54,985 nt of DNA. Origin: a virus. Below are positions 4,825-41,759 of the stretch, piece by piece (within the stretch, counting starts at the first letter, position 1; every line of letters begins with the position of its first letter). Both the position numbers and the translations under genes were made by a program. The stretch spans positions 1 to 54,985 of IMG/VR virus record IMGVR_UViG_3300010396_000013; one strand, 5' to 3'. Under the pieces are notes generated by a model. The model searched no databases, was not told the DNA's origin, and worked only from the letters and a program-made list of their open reading frames with translations.

Positions 4825-4997
4825 TGCAATGGTGGTGGTGGCCCATGACGGCAGCTGTAGCGTGGGGCGTTGATGCAATTCTTTCTCGGCGTGCATCAGC
4901 CCAGCGACGCCGCGCGAGCGCCGAGAGCATTCGTATCGATCAACCGCATTCGCAATCGCAAATCTCCATTTCCCGTAAGGGAGTGGATCATGGATAG
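4824..4997 (+). CDS. Possible small Trp-rich protein, 57 aa
   Basis: It starts MQWWWWPMTAAVAWGVDAIL, with a run of four tryptophans and a short hydrophobic stretch, then a basic Arg/Ser-rich tail. It begins in TGATG overlap with the preceding small frame but overlaps the DpdA-like gene by about 125 nt in another frame. It could be a coupled leader or membrane peptide, or a chance frame. Confidence 0.3.
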   Translation: MQWWWWPMTAAVAWGVDAILSRRASAQRRRASAESIRIDQPHSQSQISISRKGVDHG

Positions 4998-5745
4998 CGG
5001 GGCATTCACGACCGTCAACAAATTCGGCGGCTATCCCGAGGAACCGGCGGTGTATGCCGCGCAAATTCGGCGGTGGGCCGATAATGGCGAGCTATTGGCT
5101 GCGGTGTCTCAGGATTACATGTGCGAACCGTTCGTCTTGGCGCGGACTGGTCTGACGATTGCCGATCATCAGCGGCTCACAATCGAGCGATACGACGCGC
5201 TGCTGGAAGCGGGGACTGCGGGTGTCTACGTGATGCCGGTCCTGCAAGGCTATGCGCCGGCTGATTATGTCGCGCATATCCGGCAATATGGCCCGCGATT
5301 GGCTCACGGCGCATGGGTTGGCGTCGGCAGTGTGTGCAAGCGCAATGGCACCCCGAGCGCGATCGAGTGCGTGTTGCTGGCGATCAAAGCCGAGAGGCCC
5401 GATCTGCGGCTGCACGGATTTGGGGTCAAGATCACGTCGCTTGGCTCACAGCTGGTGCGCGATCTGCTGCACAGCGCGGACTCGATGGCGTGGTCTTACG
5501 CGGCGCGGATGACGGGCGGCGATGGCAACGACATCCGCAACGGCATCCGGTATGCGCGGCGGGTCGAGACGATGGCGACGCAGGAAAGTTTCTTTGGGAT
5601 TGACCAATTCGGCCCCGTCTATCTGGCGCCGATGCAGGGCGGGGCTGCGGCTCCCCGTGCGTGTGACGATGGTTCGTCCCTGAAACTGGCCGCCGATGCC
5701 CCGAGTGTCGGCGGTCCCTTTTCGAGGGAGTGGTGGGAAATATGA
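4873..5745 (+). CDS. dpdA: DpdA-like 7-deazaguanine DNA-modification transglycosylase
   Basis: This 290-residue protein resembles the TGT-superfamily proteins of phage DpdA type, which exchange guanine in DNA for 7-deazaguanine bases and so block restriction. The candidate catalytic aspartates are D41 in IMDSGAFTTVN (compare DSGGFQ in tRNA-guanine transglycosylase) and D81 in VSQDYMCEPF. Further conserved-looking stretches are YVMPVLQGY, GVGSVCKRNG and HGFGVKITSL. GGGG lies just upstream of ATG 4873. The gene overlaps the next, a DNA methyltransferase, by ATGA. No preQ0 synthesis genes (folE, queD, queE, queC) are visible in the window, so the base would have to come from the host. Confidence 0.75.
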   Translation: MQFFLGVHQPSDAARAPRAFVSINRIRNRKSPFPVREWIMDSGAFTTVNKFGGYPEEPAVYAAQIRRWADNGELLAAVSQDYMCEPFVLARTGLTIADHQRLTIERYDALLEAGTAGVYVMPVLQGYAPADYVAHIRQYGPRLAHGAWVGVGSVCKRNGTPSAIECVLLAIKAERPDLRLHGFGVKITSLGSQLVRDLLHSADSMAWSYAARMTGGDGNDIRNGIRYARRVETMATQESFFGIDQFGPVYLAPMQGGAAAPRACDDGSSLKLAADAPSVGGPFSREWWEI

Positions 5746-6557
5746 GCCGGGTCGAGGTCATCGGGAATGCCAAGCTTTATCTCGGCGATTGTCGGGAGAT
5801 TTTGCCTACGCTGGGGCGGGTGGACGCAGTTGTTACGGACCCGCCGTATGGGAATGCCAACCACGACGGGGATTGGAATGCGCGCCTGAACGACCATCGC
5901 GGCATCGAGAATATGCCCATTGCCAACGACACGGCCGATGCGATGCGAGCAGTTATGGATGACATGCTCCGGGCTGTCGTGCCGCTCTTGAGCAAGCAGG
6001 CGTCGGCGTGCTGCTGCTTTTGTGGCGGGGGGGGGGGGGCTCGTCCTGTGTTCGGGTGGTTGGCCGAACGCATGGACCGCGAGGGACTGCAATTCTTTCA
6101 TTCTCTGGTCTGGGACAAGCGCAATCCGGGCCTCGGACAACGCTATCGGCGGCAGCATGAAATGGTGATGATCGCGCATATCACGGGCGGTCGCATTCGG
6201 TGGAATGCCGACAACAGAAAGGTACCCAATGTCCTTTCAGGGATGCCGCCGCGCGACCGCCTGCATCCCAACGAAAAGCCCGTCGAGATCGTTGAGATAT
6301 TAGTCGCCACACATTCCAATGAGGGCGACCTAATTCTCGACCCCTTCATGGGCAGCGGTACCACCGGCGTTGCCTGCGCGCGTCTCGGCCGCTCCTTCAT
6401 CGGTATCGAGATCGACGAGAAATATTTCGACATCGCGGTGCGAAGGATAGAGCAAGCCCAGCGCCAGGCCGACCTTTTCATCCACCCCGCCGACCCCGAG
6501 CGCGGCTACCAGCAGGCGGCGCTGTCGCTGCATGACGTCGAGGACCGCGCACCATGA
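5742..6557 (+). CDS. Site-specific DNA methyltransferase (N6-adenine/N4-cytosine type)
   Basis: It has 271 residues. The catalytic motif DPPY is at 32-35 and the SAM motif DPFMGSGTTG comes later near residue 200, the beta-class order seen in many m6A enzymes. HPNEKPVEI precedes the SAM motif, as usual. A run of 13 G (6027-6039) encodes the glycine stretch in CCCFCGGGGG and keeps the frame open here. The ATG at 5742 overlaps the DpdA-like stop (ATGA) with GGGA upstream, so the two DNA-modifying genes are translationally coupled. No restriction partner is visible; a solitary protective or regulatory enzyme is likely. Confidence 0.88.
   Translation: MSRVEVIGNAKLYLGDCREILPTLGRVDAVVTDPPYGNANHDGDWNARLNDHRGIENMPIANDTADAMRAVMDDMLRAVVPLLSKQASACCCFCGGGGGARPVFGWLAERMDREGLQFFHSLVWDKRNPGLGQRYRRQHEMVMIAHITGGRIRWNADNRKVPNVLSGMPPRDRLHPNEKPVEIVEILVATHSNEGDLILDPFMGSGTTGVACARLGRSFIGIEIDEKYFDIAVRRIEQAQRQADLFIHPADPERGYQQAALSLHDVEDRAP
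6027..6039. repeat. 13-bp poly-G tract inside the methyltransferase gene
   Basis: Thirteen consecutive G residues lie inside the coding sequence. Tracts of this kind can gain or lose bases by slippage, which would switch the reading frame. The tract encodes part of a glycine-rich segment, so it may also simply reflect codon choice. Homopolymer length is prone to sequencing error. Confidence 0.95.
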
Positions 6558-9210: not shown

Positions 9211-9527
9211 TGGTTGAAATGCCGGTGGCTTTGCTTGGCTGGAAAGAAATGAAACGAAATTCTCTGCGGGGGTTCGCGAAAGTCCGTGTCGGGAAGGCGC
9301 TGATCCTGCATGACGTGACCGTGCATGTCGCGAACGGCAAGCGGTGGGCGACCCCTGCCAGTAAGCCGCAGATCGGGGCCGATGGCGTCGCGCTCAAGGA
9401 TGATCGGGGCAAGATCAAATACGCTCCGATTATGGAGTGGGGCGATCGCGAGACCGCTGATTCCTTCTCCGCAGGAGTGATCGCGGCTGTCGAGCGCGAG
9501 CATCCCGGCGCTACGGCAGCGGATTGA
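9210..9527 (+). CDS. Small replication-neighbour protein, 105 aa
   Basis: It begins MVEMPVALLGWKEMKRNSLR and continues GFAKVRVGKALILHDVTVHV, then ANGKRWATPASKPQ. This order (a strand rich in basic residues, 'LHDVTVH', 'NGKRWA.P') recalls SpoVG-like small DNA-binding proteins, but the similarity is weak. TGATG coupling on both sides ties it to the primase-helicase gene. It may be a DNA-binding accessory factor. Confidence 0.6.
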   Translation: MVEMPVALLGWKEMKRNSLRGFAKVRVGKALILHDVTVHVANGKRWATPASKPQIGADGVALKDDRGKIKYAPIMEWGDRETADSFSAGVIAAVEREHPGATAAD

Positions 9528-11596
9528 TGATGCCCACCGGCACCCCGCAGGAAGTCCATGCGCTCCGAGCGCAGCTTTGGGACGCTGGCTTTCGGCCGGT
9601 GCCGGTGTACAATCACGACGACGCGCACCCGTCTGCCGGCAAAGCTCCGATGGGCAACGCCTGGGGGGACGAAGCGCGGCGCGACCCGCCGGATGCAGTT
9701 TCCCGGCCGGCGCACCCTCGCGCGCTTAATACCGGCTTGTTGTGTGACGGCCTTCGTGCCATCGACGTGGACGTAGACAACCCTACCATCGCCGCGTCCA
9801 TCCGCGCCAAGGCGCTGGATCGCTTCGGTGAGGCGCCCATGCGCTACCGGGACAATTCGCCACGTGTGCTGCTGCTCTACCGAGCGACCGAAGGCGCGCC
9901 GCCTAAGAGGTCCATTGTCGGCCCCATGGGCAAGGTGGAAATCCTCGGCGCTGGCCAGCAATTTGTGGCGTTCGGTGTTCATCCGTCTGGGGCTGACCTA
10001 CGATGGATGCCGGAGCCGCCCGGTAGCGAGATGTTGGCGTCCCTGACCGCGATCAGCGAAGCGGACGTCGATGTGTTTCTCGCGGACGTGGCATCATCCA
10101 TTGGTGCCGTGATGCTGCCCAAGGCGGCCAACGGCACGCAGGCATCGTCGCCGCGTGGCCTTGGCGCTGACCCGCTCCAAGTCGTGGCGGCGCTATCGGC
10201 CATCCCGAACAACGGCCCTGCGGATTGGGAAGGCTGGAACCGCATCGGCATGGCGACGTGGGCAGCGACTGGTGGCGGCGAAGCAGGGCGTGCGGCGTTC
10301 CATGCCTGGTCGCAGGCGCACCCAGCATACGACGCGCAGGCCACGAATGAGCGGTGGGACCATTACCGCACAAGTCCGCCAACCCAGATCGGCGCGGGTT
10401 CGCTATTCTATATGGCGAAGATGGCGACGCCCGTTGGGAATGGACGGCCGGAGGAAACGCCGCGCGAGGAACAGGAACCGCCGCGCGCCAAGTCTCTCCC
10501 CGTCATCTATTTCAACGATATCCGCGCCCAACTGGACGCCGCCGATTTTGTCGAAGGACTGCTGACCGATGCCGCCATGGCCGTCGTCTACGGCCAGTCG
10601 AACAGCGGCAAGACCTTCTGGACCCTTGATCTGGCGCTCCATGTCGCCGCCGGCAAGGAATGGAACGGCCGGGCGATCGAACAGCGCGGCGTGCTATGGC
10701 TCGCCATGGAGGGCAGTTTTGGCGCGCAAAACCGCGTCATCGCCTGGTGCAAGCATCACGAGATTGACGCCGAGACCCTGCCGTTCGCCATCATCCCGGT
10801 TGCGCTGAACCTGCTGGACCCGGAGGCTGATACCGAACGCCTTCTCGCCACTATGGCCGAGGTCGGGGCACAATTTACCATCCCGGTCGGCTGGACCGTC
10901 GTGGACACGCTCAGCCGCGCCATGGCCGGCGGCAATGAGAATGCACCGGACGATATGGGCGCGCTCGTCACCAACGGCACCAGGCTGCAACAGGTCGGCA
11001 AGACGGCCATCCTCTGGATACATCATGCCGGCAAAGACGACGCCAAGGGCGCGCGCGGCCACAGCCTACTCAGGGCCGCAACAGACACCGAAATAGAGAT
11101 CACCGCCGAGGGACCGCAGCGCATGGCGCAGGTCAAAAAACAGCGGGAAATGGATTGCGACGGAGTTTTTGCATTCACCCTCAAGGTGGTCGAACTCGGT
11201 CTCAATAAGCGCGGGAAGCCGGTTACTTCCTGCGTGGTCGAAGGCTCCGATGCGGGTCATACGGCGGGCGCCGTTCTCGCACCGAAGCTGAAAGGTCACA
11301 CCGGGCGGGCGCTCAGTGTGTTGCACGACCTGCTTAGCGAAAGCGGTCGCGCTGATTATCCAGGCGTGCCTATGGGTCTGCCATCCGTTCCGGAGGATTG
11401 GTGGAGGCAGCGTTTCTACGACCGGACTATCGACGACGGGAAAGCCGACGTGAGCCAAAACGGGAAGCGCATGGCGTTCAATCGAGCCGTTCAGGACCTC
11501 GCCGACAAGCGCTTGGTAGGCGTCACCAAGGGGCGTGTTTGGGCGTGCAGACCCGCACAAACACCCGCACAGAAAGCCGCACATTTTGATGATTGA
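9527..11596 (+). CDS. Prim-pol / PriCT / RepA-type helicase replication protein
   Basis: This 689-residue multidomain protein begins with a bifunctional primase-polymerase N-terminus (GFRPVPVYNHDDAHPSAGKA, NTGLLCDGLRAIDVDVDNP). A PriCT-like segment follows (WEGWNRIGMATWAATGGGEA). The ATPase domain has Walker A GQSNSGKT near residue 361 and a Walker B-like GWTVVDTLSRAMAGG; ILWIHHAGKDD follows. Such proteins prime and unwind phage or plasmid DNA. The start is ATG 9527 in TGATG overlap. The last 45 bp lie in a cluster of CCGCACA repeats that may be the origin. Confidence 0.88.
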   Translation: MMPTGTPQEVHALRAQLWDAGFRPVPVYNHDDAHPSAGKAPMGNAWGDEARRDPPDAVSRPAHPRALNTGLLCDGLRAIDVDVDNPTIAASIRAKALDRFGEAPMRYRDNSPRVLLLYRATEGAPPKRSIVGPMGKVEILGAGQQFVAFGVHPSGADLRWMPEPPGSEMLASLTAISEADVDVFLADVASSIGAVMLPKAANGTQASSPRGLGADPLQVVAALSAIPNNGPADWEGWNRIGMATWAATGGGEAGRAAFHAWSQAHPAYDAQATNERWDHYRTSPPTQIGAGSLFYMAKMATPVGNGRPEETPREEQEPPRAKSLPVIYFNDIRAQLDAADFVEGLLTDAAMAVVYGQSNSGKTFWTLDLALHVAAGKEWNGRAIEQRGVLWLAMEGSFGAQNRVIAWCKHHEIDAETLPFAIIPVALNLLDPEADTERLLATMAEVGAQFTIPVGWTVVDTLSRAMAGGNENAPDDMGALVTNGTRLQQVGKTAILWIHHAGKDDAKGARGHSLLRAATDTEIEITAEGPQRMAQVKKQREMDCDGVFAFTLKVVELGLNKRGKPVTSCVVEGSDAGHTAGAVLAPKLKGHTGRALSVLHDLLSESGRADYPGVPMGLPSVPEDWWRQRFYDRTIDDGKADVSQNGKRMAFNRAVQDLADKRLVGVTKGRVWACRPAQTPAQKAAHFDD

Positions 11597-11697
11597 TCCG
11601 CACAAACGCACATCCGCCAAAATCCCCACCCCCCGCACAACCCGCACATCTCCCCGTAAGGGGGATGTGCAGGGTGCGGGGAGGGGATGGCCGCACA
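11553..11697 (+). other. CCGCACA iteron-like cluster, candidate replication origin
   Basis: Seven perfect copies of CCGCACA, all in one orientation, start at 11553, 11565, 11577, 11598, 11633, 11642 and 11691; ACGCACA adds one near-copy at 11606. The first three are spaced exactly 12 bp apart. The cluster covers the 3' end of the replication gene and the gap after it. Iterons beside or within an initiator gene are a common origin layout; no binding evidence exists here. Confidence 0.55.
11631..11681. repeat. Long imperfect inverted repeat
   Basis: The left arm CCCCGCACAACCCGCACATC and the right arm GATGTGCAGGGTGCGGGG pair over about 20 bp with small bulges, continued by CCCC/GGGG around a GTAA loop. 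It lies inside the CCGCACA cluster. Without a following T-run it is a poor terminator; an origin hairpin or mRNA structure is more likely. Confidence 0.6.
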
Positions 11698-11727
11698 TTT
11701 TTAGGGACGGCACTGGAAGGGGATATT

Positions 11728-11988
11728 GTGATCGAACTACCTGACGGTTTCCATCTGGTGCATCGCGGTCAGACCTATCGGCTCGTTGGGACGCGCCCCC
11801 ACGAGCGCAAGGATGGTCAGATCACGACGCTAATCGACTGGGATACGAATTGCCCGGAGTGCGGCGTCGCGTTCCGCGTTTCCACGACGCCGAAATGGGA
11901 GCCGAACCGCCGGTGTGAATCGTGTCGATCACCCGGCAAGCGCGTCGGATCGCACACCCCACCCCGACCCCACCGGACGCACCCATGA
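11728..11988 (+). CDS. Zinc-ribbon-like small protein, 86 aa, GTG start
   Basis: It starts GTG at 11728 with GGAAGGGG well placed upstream and reads (V)IELPDGFHLVHRGQTYRLV. Two Cys pairs, CPEC and CESC, lie about 25 residues apart and form a likely zinc ribbon. The C-terminus is basic and Pro/His-rich (SHTPPRPHRTHP). The longer frame upstream covers the hairpin region and was not used. The function is unknown. Confidence 0.6.
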   Translation: MIELPDGFHLVHRGQTYRLVGTRPHERKDGQITTLIDWDTNCPECGVAFRVSTTPKWEPNRRCESCRSPGKRVGSHTPPRPHRTHP

Positions 11989-12228
11989 CCCCTACGCCGC
12001 GTTCCGCATATCCGGCGCTCTCTCCCGCTCGACGGCGGTGGCTACACGCCCACGCAATCGCGATATCCGGGCCGCTGAGGGGGGTTGGCGCGGTTGGTGG
12101 GTGTTGGGTGCCGGATGGGGCGGAAACGGCCCCCACGGGCTTCCTATACCCCGCGCGCGCGGTGAGAATGCGGACGCAGGCGCGGGCGGGTTGGTGGCGG
12201 TCGCACCCTGACCGCGTGGGGACGGCCC
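11989..12228. other. Region without a confident gene
   Basis: An ATG at 11985 overlaps the preceding stop (ATGA) and opens a long plus-strand frame. That frame runs on antisense through the HTH gene and becomes Arg/Pro-rich, so I do not call it. A short coupled peptide ending here cannot be excluded. No clear terminator or repeat was seen. Confidence 0.4.
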
Positions 12229-17869: not shown

Positions 17870-18340
17870 ATGGCTAAAGGCGGGGGCACTCGGCGCGGCA
17901 ATGGTTCCGGCTGGGGCGGTCCAGCGAAGGGTGCTGGCAGTAAAACGCCGGCCCACCCTCCGTTTGAACCGGGCAATACTCTCGCGGTAGGCCAAGGCAA
18001 TGCGGGACAGGCCGGACGTGAAGCCGCCAAGACCGCGCGGGAACTGGTCATCTCCAAGGCTGTCGCCGCCGCTCAGGTCTGGATCGATGTGATGGAGGAC
18101 AAGAGCCAGCCCGGCGCAGTGCGCGTCGCTGCGGCGGCGAAAGTAGTGGAGCACGCGGAAGGAACGCCGATCGCGCGGAGTGTGAATGTCCATACCGATG
18201 CAACCGACGCCCTCTCCGATGCCGAACTTGAAGCCGCAATCGCCGCTCTCCGAAAAGATATTGCTGCTGACAAAGCTAGAGCAGACCGAGACGCGCAGGA
18301 AATCGCTGCGGAAACTGCTGGATTACCGGCCCTACACTAA
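17870..18340 (+). CDS. Terminase small subunit
   Basis: It has 156 residues. A Gly-rich basic N-terminus (MAKGGGTRRGNGSGWGGPAK) is followed by FEPGNTLAVGQGNAGQAGRE and a helical region (RELVISKAVAAAQVWIDVME) with VRVAAAAKVVEHAEGTP, the usual layout of small terminases in such phages. It would recognise the packaging site. The gene is followed, with a 155-nt overlap, by the large subunit. Confidence 0.8.
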   Translation: MAKGGGTRRGNGSGWGGPAKGAGSKTPAHPPFEPGNTLAVGQGNAGQAGREAAKTARELVISKAVAAAQVWIDVMEDKSQPGAVRVAAAAKVVEHAEGTPIARSVNVHTDATDALSDAELEAAIAALRKDIAADKARADRDAQEIAAETAGLPALH

Positions 18341-19658
18341 GCAGCGGATATTCCACGCTTTGGGTGCGACAAAGCGCGAGCGGTTGCTGCGCGCTGGCAA
18401 CCAGCTTGGGAAAACGTATACCGGCGCTGCCGAAATGGCGATGCACCTGACGGGCATTTATCCCGACTGGTGGACTGGTCGCAGGTTCGTAAAGGCCGTG
18501 CGGGCGTGGGCCGGCGGCAAGGATAGCCTGAGCGTCCGAGATAGCCTGACGACGCTGCTTCTCGGCCCTATTGGCGACCGTCCCACCGGGTTCATTCCGC
18601 CGGATCGGGTGGTCAATGTCATTACGGCGCGCGGCATCCCAAACGGGGTCGATACCGTCACGGTGAAGCATGTAAGCGGCGGCATATCGACGCTGGCGTT
18701 CAAGTCCTACGACCAGGGACGCGAGCGGTGGCAGGCGGCAACGCTTGATCTGGTATGGCTCGATGAAGAGCCGGGCGAAGACATTTACCTTGAGGCACTG
18801 AGCCGCACCAACGCGACTGGCGGCATGCTCTACATGACGTTCACGCCCCTTTTAGGGATGAGCACGGTTGTCAGGCGGTTCTTGATGGAGGCCAGCGAAG
18901 ATCGGTCGGACACCAATCTGACCATCGAAGACGCCGAGCACATCTCAGAATCTGAACGTCGAAAGATCATCGCCGGATATCCGGCGCACGAGCGGGAAGC
19001 GCGAACGCTGGGTATCCCGTCCATGGGCTCCGGCCGCATCTTCCCTGTGGATGAAAATAACATCAAGATCGCCGCATTCCCGATCCCGGCACATTGGGCG
19101 ATCATCGGCGCGCTTGACTTCGGCTGGGACCATCCGACTGCGGCGGCCAGGCTGGCATGGGATCGCGATACCGATACGGTCTACGTCACCCACACCCACA
19201 AGCTGCGCGAGGCGGTTCCTGCGGTGCATATCGCGGCGCTACGGTCATGGGGCGAGCAGATGCCGTGGGCATGGCCGCACGACGGGCTACAGCACGACAA
19301 GGGAGCCGGGGTTCAGATCGCCGAGCAGTATCGGCGCGGTGGCCTCAGGATGCTCGCTGAGCGGGCGCAGTATGCCGGCGAGCGCGGCAGCAGCGTAGAG
19401 GCCGGCATCAGCGACATGCTGGAGCGAATGGAGACTGACCGCTTCAAGGTGTTCAGCCATCTGAACGACTTTTTCGAGGAGTTCCGGCTTTACCATCGCA
19501 AGGATGGAAAGGTCGTCAAGGAGTTCGACGACGTGATTTCGGCAATTCGCTACGGAATCATGAGCCTGCGTTTTGCCAAGCCGGTCGGCGGCGAGCCGAA
19601 GAAAAAGCCTTCGGTGCCGCCCAATCGGCAGCCCAGCAGCACATCATGGATGGGGTAA
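18186..19658 (+). CDS. terL: Terminase large subunit (P22 gp2-like)
   Basis: This 490-residue packaging motor is close in size to P22 gp2 (499). Walker A GNQLGKT is at 71-77 and Walker B LVWLDEEP near 189-196. The nuclease domain starts with ALDFGWDHPTAAA (D311 and D315) and ends with FDDVISAIRYG. P22-type motors package by headful, which fits a circularly permuted genome. The start overlaps the small subunit; nearby ATGs could give a slightly shorter product. Confidence 0.93.
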   Translation: MSIPMQPTPSPMPNLKPQSPLSEKILLLTKLEQTETRRKSLRKLLDYRPYTKQRIFHALGATKRERLLRAGNQLGKTYTGAAEMAMHLTGIYPDWWTGRRFVKAVRAWAGGKDSLSVRDSLTTLLLGPIGDRPTGFIPPDRVVNVITARGIPNGVDTVTVKHVSGGISTLAFKSYDQGRERWQAATLDLVWLDEEPGEDIYLEALSRTNATGGMLYMTFTPLLGMSTVVRRFLMEASEDRSDTNLTIEDAEHISESERRKIIAGYPAHEREARTLGIPSMGSGRIFPVDENNIKIAAFPIPAHWAIIGALDFGWDHPTAAARLAWDRDTDTVYVTHTHKLREAVPAVHIAALRSWGEQMPWAWPHDGLQHDKGAGVQIAEQYRRGGLRMLAERAQYAGERGSSVEAGISDMLERMETDRFKVFSHLNDFFEEFRLYHRKDGKVVKEFDDVISAIRYGIMSLRFAKPVGGEPKKKPSVPPNRQPSSTSWMG

Positions 19659-40392: not shown

Positions 40393-40848
40393 ATGACGGG
40401 CGTTGTGAGCACGAACCCACCGAACTACGGCGCGGCGAGCACGAATCAGGGATATAGTCTGACGCCGCAGGGCGGCTTGCGCACACAAGCGATGGCCGGC
40501 GGGGCGGACGTGTCGCCCACCAACCCCCTCCCCGTCGAAGTCGTTTCCGGCTCCGGTTCGCAAGTCACGATCCTCTCGCTTGATGTCTCCACCGTCACAA
40601 CCGGGGGCACTCCTGTCACCGCTCTCAGTGCAGGACATGCGACGGCTGGTGGCTGGATTCAGAACCCGCCGACTGCAACGACAAACCTTGGCATCAACCA
40701 GAAGGGCACCGCTGCGGGCACCACATCCTCCGGCGACACGACCTTCATCATTCCGGGGCAGACCTATCAACTATCTCCCTCGGCAAACGCTGTATCGGTG
40801 ATTTCCTCGGATTCGGCGCACGCCTTTAGCGGGTATGGGTTCCAGTGA
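40393..40848 (+). CDS. Tail/fibre-associated protein, 151 aa
   Basis: It begins MTGVVSTNPPNYGAASTNQG and is rich in Thr, Ser and Gly with beta character (PLPVEVVSGSGSQVTILSLD, FIIPGQTYQLSPSANAVSVI). AAAGGAGCC lies upstream of the ATG. TGATG coupling joins it to the glycine-rich gene. It may be a small fibre or tip protein. Confidence 0.55.
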   Translation: MTGVVSTNPPNYGAASTNQGYSLTPQGGLRTQAMAGGADVSPTNPLPVEVVSGSGSQVTILSLDVSTVTTGGTPVTALSAGHATAGGWIQNPPTATTNLGINQKGTAAGTTSSGDTTFIIPGQTYQLSPSANAVSVISSDSAHAFSGYGFQ

Positions 40849-41759
40849 TGAACAATTATGGGCCGGGGCCGGTTCCGCCGATTCCCCGTAAAGTCACGAC
40901 TTTCACATCCAACGGCACATGGACGCCAGCATCTGGCAGCACGCTCGTATGGGCGACACTGATCGGCGGCGGTGGTGGCGGCGGCGGCGGCGCATCCATC
41001 GCGCTCGGCGGCACTGGCTCCGGTGGTGGCGGCGGGGGCGGTGCGGCGGTGCAGACCATAGGGCCGTATCGCATCGCTGATCTTGGCACGATCAATGGCG
41101 CTGTGGTTGTGGGGGCGGGCGGGACTGGCGGTGCTGCAGGGGCGAACGGGGTTCAAGGCGCGCTATCGTCGCTCAATCTGGCGACCGGCATTTTTGTTGA
41201 AGCGGGAGGCGGCGGCCTCGGCTCTCTCGGTGCTTCTGCGACCAACAGCGGCGGGGGTGCCGGCGGCAGCCTCTATGGCAACGGCAACAATGCGTCGGGG
41301 GCGACAGGGGGTGCGGCTGGCGGATTTGGTTCTGGTGGCGGCGGAAGCGGGAGCAGTGGCGCGACAGTAGGAACGTTCCCGAACTGCGGGCCGGGCGCGG
41401 GCGGTTCCAACGGAACGACTGGCGCGGCTGGCGCGGCGGCGTTCTCACAAGGTGCTGCGGGCGCAGGCAGCGGTGGCGCTGGTGTCGTGGCTGGCGCGGC
41501 CGGAACGACAGCAGTCGGAGGCGTTACTCCCTATCAGCGCACTGGCGCGGCGGCTGGCGCGAACGGCGGCTCCAATCCCGTAGGCCCCGGCGCAGGCGGC
41601 GGCGGCGGTGCATCCGGCATCACCAGCGCCAACGGCAGCAACGGCGGCAACGGCGGCTCCTACGGCGGCGGCGGCGGCGGTGGGGGTGCATCTTCGGGCG
41701 GCACTGGCGGGACCGGCGGCACGGGTGGCAACGGTGTGGTGATCGTTTACGAAGCATGA
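40848..41759 (+). CDS. Glycine-rich fibre-tip/adhesin-like protein
   Basis: It has 303 residues. After a short N-terminus (TTFTSNGTWTPASGSTLVWA) the protein is dominated by glycine blocks (for example IGGGGGGGGG and GGGAGGSLYGNGNN), ending VVIVYEA. 'F...GTWT.P.G...V.v..iGgGGGGG' is the hallmark of the glycine-rich domain found in phage tip proteins and adhesins, which can fold as polyglycine-II bundles. Variable loops between the Gly blocks could contact the receptor. Confidence 0.75.
   Translation: MNNYGPGPVPPIPRKVTTFTSNGTWTPASGSTLVWATLIGGGGGGGGGASIALGGTGSGGGGGGGAAVQTIGPYRIADLGTINGAVVVGAGGTGGAAGANGVQGALSSLNLATGIFVEAGGGGLGSLGASATNSGGGAGGSLYGNGNNASGATGGAAGGFGSGGGGSGSSGATVGTFPNCGPGAGGSNGTTGAAGAAAFSQGAAGAGSGGAGVVAGAAGTTAVGGVTPYQRTGAAAGANGGSNPVGPGAGGGGGASGITSANGSNGGNGGSYGGGGGGGGASSGGTGGTGGTGGNGVVIVYEA

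Follow-up and report, generated by a model that had tools for sequence, protein, structure and literature searches.

A putative phage replication origin at the 3' end of a PrimPol/RepA-like helicase gene, with iterons probably read by the helicase's own winged helix

Introduction

For most tailed phages, the site where replication starts has yet to be mapped. In the staphylococcal islands, the C-terminal domain of the SaPI/SCCmec Rep binds iterons lying directly downstream of its own gene (PMC7581432). Like the phage locus presented here, Rep and Cch2 combine a helicase initiator with short iterons directly 3' of the gene, the primase being fused or encoded nearby (PMC7581432). In the crenarchaeal plasmid pRN1, a stem-loop immediately past the 3' end of the gene for ORF904, a protein with PrimPol, helicase and winged helix, serves as the origin; this stem-loop was found by experiment to be required for replication, and its structure is conserved while its sequence is not (PMC4234260). 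In the PLE satellites of Vibrio cholerae, the DNA-binding domain of the initiator RepA covaries with the iterons of the ori, and the modules swap (PMC8263062).

The window, i.e. the whole stretch of 54,985 nucleotides analysed from an IMG/VR virus record, carries seven iterons and a hairpin at the 3' end of a gene for an AAA_25 RepA-like helicase with fused PrimPol. Regarding SaPI/SCCmec, sequence comparison recovers here both iterons immediately past the 3' end of the helicase gene and a specificity lying in the C-terminus, whereas the helicases of the islands are of the DUF927/SF3 (D5-like) type, and the constant hairpin core with iteron arms sets the window-type element apart. With pRN1, the window shares a protein combining PrimPol, helicase and winged helix as well as a stem-loop 3' of the gene, but pRN1 has an SF3 helicase, no iteron array and a stem-loop of about 100 nt with a large loop. 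PLE differs by its RepA_N initiator, its semi-palindromic iterons of about 30 bp and its N-terminal binding domain (PMC8263062). Because its helicase belongs to another family than that of SaPI/SCCmec and pRN1 is without iterons, the window element falls outside both classes; by analogy, it would work like the SaPI/SCCmec Rep, pRN1 and PLE origins while being a member of none.

Clustered direct repeats near helical-turn spacing beside an initiator gene, as in iteron origins generally, are present in the window. The initial annotation likened them to the origins of plasmids and lambdoid phages, a likeness that stands for the iteron array but not for lambda as the nearest parallel, since SaPI/SCCmec Rep and pRN1 have their origins 3' of a helicase gene. 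In lambda, the iterons are part of the O gene, whose product is not a helicase but loads the host DnaB. Initiator-proximal iterons in a temperate phage are common to lambda ori/O and the window, where the gene itself encodes a primase-helicase and four of the seven iterons plus the hairpin lie 3' of it. In the SV40 core origin, a hexameric helicase recognises short sites, two forward and two inverted, that surround a dyad; the paired sites and a presumably hexameric helicase are found again in the window-type element, unlike the SF3 family, the N-terminal origin-binding domain and the eukaryotic host of SV40. The oriV of RSF1010 (RepA/RepB'/RepC) brings together a RepA-type hexameric helicase, iterons and hairpins, but there the parts are separate proteins and a separate RepC binds iterons of about 20 bp. 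No account of the arrangement in the window was found in the open-access literature, subscription papers and preprints being outside the scope of the search, and its novelty is provisional as literature coverage is incomplete.

The replication gene and its phage

The window appears to come from a temperate phage, its genes including those for a portal of the P22 type, a terminase, a tyrosine integrase, RecT and YqaJ. The phage probably modifies its own DNA, as a DpdA-like gene (deazapurine in DNA) is followed by an N6/N4 DNA methylase at 4870-6557.

The replication gene (9524-11596, + strand) encodes 690 residues, for which Pfam and PHROG matches and an AlphaFold2 model of residues 575-690 delineate a PrimPol domain (residues 18-165), PriCT_2 (223-298), an AAA_25 RepA-like helicase (330-506) and a predicted C-terminal winged helix (about 591-674; codons 11294-11545, + strand), the proposed reader of the iterons. 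Pfam returned AAA_25, PriCT_2 and Prim-Pol only, DUF927 and the Primase_Cterm/D5 helicase type being absent from the matches. The model of the C-terminus (mean pLDDT 85) has the order H-E-H-H-E-E (H17-33, E47-49, H50-63, H71-87, E91-94, E97-100), and its third helix, H71-87, is the predicted recognition helix (residues 645-661; 11456-11506, + strand), with R649 (11468-11470) and M650 (11471-11473) as fifth and sixth residues. Foldseek places the model mainly among winged-helix DNA-binding proteins (CRP/GlxR, FOXN1, E2F/DP, ORC), none of the matches having an E below 0.02 and the top-ranked row being a methyltransferase; the whole protein had no phmmer match in the PDB. A general domain scan of the ten neighbouring ORFs gave no RepC match. 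Past the element, the next frame (about 11729-11988) would encode a small zinc-ribbon-like protein with paired CPEC/CESC motifs and no Pfam match.

The iteron cluster

On the + strand, CCGCACA occurs as seven exact copies: iterons 1 to 3 at 11553-11559, 11565-11571 and 11577-11583, in exact 12 bp steps and forming the last codons of the gene, then, past the stop codon (11594-11596), iteron 4 at 11598-11604, iterons 5 and 6 at 11633-11639 and 11642-11648, and iteron 7 at 11691-11697. Three copies are thus inside the gene and four downstream of it. The seven perfect same-strand 7-mers in about 145 bp described by the initial annotation were all located exactly, and the count over the whole window that it proposed as a check gave 14 copies, all on the + strand, seven of them within 11553-11697; shuffles predict about 15, i.e. 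the word is clustered without overall excess. The annotation's density far above chance was borne out as well: the rate set by the seven copies outside the cluster predicts 0.0185 in 145 bp (Poisson P of about 1e-16), and first-order (Markov) shuffling of the window, repeated 60 times, never brought a 7-mer above four copies per 145 bp. With half of the copies of the window within 145 bp and shuffles never above four, the cluster is real. The only other 7-mer reaching seven copies is the simple, GC-rich CGGCGGC at 41548-41678 (131 bp), whose cluster (41548-41720) lies within or next to an ORF rich in GC (40845-41759).

The cluster is part of a larger element, at about 11550-11700, which also includes two features absent from the initial annotation: a degenerate eighth iteron, ACGCACA (6/7 identical; 11606-11612, + strand, CGCACA at 11607), and a hairpin at 11629-11685, with iteron 7 on its 3' side.

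The hairpin and its core

The 5' arm of the hairpin, CCCCCCGCACAACCCGCACATCTCCC (11629-11654, + strand), holds iterons 5 and 6, and its 3' arm, GGGGGATGTGCAGGGTGCGGGGAGGG (11660-11685, + strand), holds imperfect complements of the same iterons, namely the inverted TGTGCAGG (11666-11673) and GTGCGGGG (11674-11681), with the loop CGTAA between the arms. In DNA folding, the region reaches z -3.4, beyond all 200 shuffles. Its core, CCCC-GTAA-GGGG (11652-11663, without strand), is the equivalent of CCTTTAGG and CCTATAGG in relatives. Among the 236 loci compared (see below), CCTTTAGG was found in 55, CCTATAGG in 32, CCTAAAGG in 10 and CCTTAAGG in 10, i.e. one of the four octamers, as a single copy each, in 107/236; their frequency is 8.3 per 10 kb at the gene 3' end vs. 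0.17 elsewhere (about 48-fold enrichment), while eleven control octamers show a modest excess at most. The window has the variant CCCCGTAAGGGG, and two relatives (L184 and L293) have CCCCGTAGGGG. The core is directional, CCTTTAGG being on the coding strand in 55 cases and its complement in 10, and it lies 3' of most iterons in 90/96 loci, at a median of 116 bp past the stop.

A second core type, with the stem ATATATC-TWC-GATATAT, is present in 11 loci and nowhere outside the zone in the 236 loci; TATATC-TWC-GATATA in place of CCTTTAGG was seen in L093, L015, L114, L181, L185, L186, L192, L208, L237 and L303. Carrying this core, L093 is a relative with 66% identity in whose genome the window element used as DNA query found no match, as expected for a fast-changing element.

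When iterons and core were held fixed and the other bases shuffled, the hairpins were still more stable than the shuffles (mean z -2.7, n=105; z -2.7 in the window). From this excess beyond what a binding-site dyad requires, the hairpin or cruciform seems to be kept for its own sake. Between L184 and the window (ACATCTCCCCGTAGGGGGATGT and ACATCTCCCCGTAAGGGGGATGT), the core is common while the outer arms have changed jointly (GGG..CC vs. CGC..GC). By sequence comparison, the words vary among relatives and the centre of the hairpin stays constant.

The arrangement in related phages

A single-protein scan of viral contigs gave nothing and alignments were required to find relatives; about 400 loci were fetched from IMG/VR and GTDB genomes, the gene was located in each and 236 non-redundant loci were kept. 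In 174 of them, the top 7-mer count of the locus is at the gene 3' end, in 19 it is tied with a place elsewhere and in 43 it is lower, the near zone around this end making up about 6% of the counting windows per locus. The mean profile is flat at 2.3-2.5 copies with a single sharp peak of 5.2 at the stop codon. At least five copies of a 7-mer at the gene stop were found in 184/236 loci (132/165 viral contigs and 52/71 GTDB prophage or host contigs), with 105 different 7-mers serving these 184 loci; the 52 others are below five, and some, such as the Caulobacter locus GB2A (L008), have no array. In annotated phages, the words at the same site include GTATAAA (Roseobacter phages), CGTGACA (Rhizobium phage 16-3), CGGTACA (Idiomarinaceae 1N2-2) and TGGGACA (an uncultured myovirus). 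Iteron spacing in relatives peaks at 9, 10 and 12 bp, about one helical turn, and in some relatives the array is wholly 3' of the stop. As far as these comparisons reach, hundreds of related phages share the arrangement with differing words.

IHF-like sites amount to 21 in 19/236 loci, vs. 4.2 expected and a maximum of 9 in 100 shuffles, and their presence in these 19 relatives would fit an origin. Consensus sites (e.g. AATCAATGACTTA), about 5-fold over shuffles, lie between iteron groups in L006, L041, L043, L047, L057, L086 and L089; none was recorded for the window element.

Besides, some arrays have other settings. L007, which is without 3' array, has TGAACGT about every 15 bp at 2317-2423, within the linker part of the gene, where the peptide shows ERAS/ERAT repeats; this may be an internal array as in lambda O. 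In L030 and L374, the gene end is preceded, at about 3.3 and 4.3 kb, by further strong arrays in which a 7-mer occurs 17 times within 300 bp. A search by pattern for arrays of CCGCACA gave 80 loci, the pattern itself being unspecific. In about a dozen of them, the array is found 175-210 bp 3' of an ORF, and these ORFs have a C-terminal tail in common; the majority of this dozen also match the RepA-like helicases compared here, and other loci are coding repeats or O-like genes. Arrays on both strands at this distance from a RepA-like helicase were noted in L411, L439, L450, L457, L461, L478 and L483, a group with a different C-terminal tail (RKRY...GPHG...WLGxQI). In L420 (4887, reverse strand) and the near-identical L432, L433 and L474, all in other prophages, CCGCACA recurs 12 bp apart within a gene for 315 residues that precedes one for a DnaB-like helicase, a lambda-O-like layout in which the word may have come into use independently.

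The domain that reads the words

Similarity between iterons follows similarity of the last ~100 residues with the helicase core controlled (partial r 0.33, 0/500 permutations, scores that are inflated by the related sequences left in the set), vs. partial r -0.09 for the helicase core with the C-terminus controlled. Part of this correlation is linkage, as the C-terminal codons adjoin the array, which cannot account for a peak at a single residue. In 55 non-redundant proteins with the same type of C-terminus, the top MI column against the iteron is residue 649, its pair with iteron position 2 reaching z 15.2 and the next pair 5.8. With K649 position 2 is G (32/32), with Q649 it is C (9/9), E649 accompanies GGAGACA (2/2) and R649 is mixed (5 G, 3 C); the R649/M650 pair of the window with CCGCACA is a single case in the set. 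Over the 108 branches of a helicase-core tree, the residue class changed 11 times and the base 12 times, 7 of them on the same branch (hypergeometric 8e-6).

Two more subfamilies, with different winged helices, show similar residue-to-base rules. In the second, the top MI column is the variable residue of the AK[T/Q/N/V/I]Y helix (z 10.7 vs. a median of 3.6). In the third, KRDTRKQ-H goes with TGCACC (8/8), and R, V, K or L with TGCAAC in 29/29 clear cases (12 unclear); there, MI on raw 6-mer labels showed no distinct peak, as a single iteron is split over several labels, and the cases were counted by word class instead. The core motif and the residue rules were first noticed in part of the data and then counted on all of them. 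On this covariation, the iterons are very probably bound by the winged helix at the C-terminus of the helicase itself, and the N-terminal region put forward for a binding test in the initial annotation is disfavoured.

A putative origin and its mechanism

Very probably, the stretch at about 11550-11700 serves the phage as replication origin and as binding site for its own PrimPol/RepA-like helicase, whose C-terminal winged helix would read the iterons. The candidate origin proposed in the initial annotation thereby gains support from the array and hairpin at the same place in most of the 236 relatives and from the covariation of the array with the predicted recognition helix of the gene's own protein. 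GC skew, with no turn at 11.6 kb, is uninformative for origin placement. Regarding the mechanism, protomers would physically bind the direct array through their winged helices; through the pairs of two forward and two inverted iterons, helicase rings would come to flank the palindromic core and face it, hexamers being loaded there; the core DNA would open, perhaps via cruciform extrusion, the fused PrimPol would be brought to the exposed strand and prime there, and replication would start.

Alternative explanations

The element could instead be an operator, through which the helicase protein or another phage regulator would control transcription of its own or the next gene, with replication starting elsewhere. 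Iterons often have both roles, and the covariation points to the probable reader of the repeats rather than to their purpose; yet the array occupies the 3' end rather than the promoter of the gene, no sigma-70-like promoter was found at 11400-12000, a conserved palindromic core within the array would be unusual for an operator and the IHF-like sites of the 19 relatives fit an origin, making this explanation unlikely. Slightly less likely still is another cis site for partition, incompatibility, packaging or recombination, set beside the gene by chance. The parS, pac and resolution sites can also have repeat arrays with palindromes, but the location tracks the helicase gene in 236 loci, the repeats covary with the helicase protein and the terminase of the window (18186-19658) is 6.6 kb off.

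For a transcription terminator or structured RNA closing the rep operon, a GC-rich hairpin after a stop codon is what would be expected. A T-run follows the core in just 4/106 loci, however, and a terminator scan gives none on the + strand at the element, on which grounds the terminator was rejected; no Rfam family reaches threshold, and with either version, which we consider very improbable, the direct repeats and the link to the recognition helix are left unexplained. Chance or a coding repeat, suggested by the three copies within the reading frame, is scarcely credible given the four non-coding copies, the shuffles and the relatives with an array entirely downstream of the stop, and is refuted by the position of the array across the 236 loci.

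Concluding remarks

If the reading as an origin is true, hundreds of phages and prophages, chiefly from Proteobacteria, would have an origin that can be located from sequence, namely where their RepA-like helicase gene ends. Tentatively, these elements may form an undescribed and very widespread class of phage origins. In such a class, a modular winged helix at the end of the protein would read a 7-bp word via one or two residues of its recognition helix, and a constant CCTTTAGG-type core with two forward and two inverted words would serve head-to-head loading of the helicase. Single amino-acid changes could then rewrite the word, so that phages may diversify their words against origin competition or origin-directed nucleases; the origin-directed nuclease Odn, which acts against PLE, offers a case for comparison (PMC8263062). 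The residue-to-base rules would open the specificity between initiator and origin to direct tests by point mutation, and the system would lend itself to asking why origin words diversify so fast.
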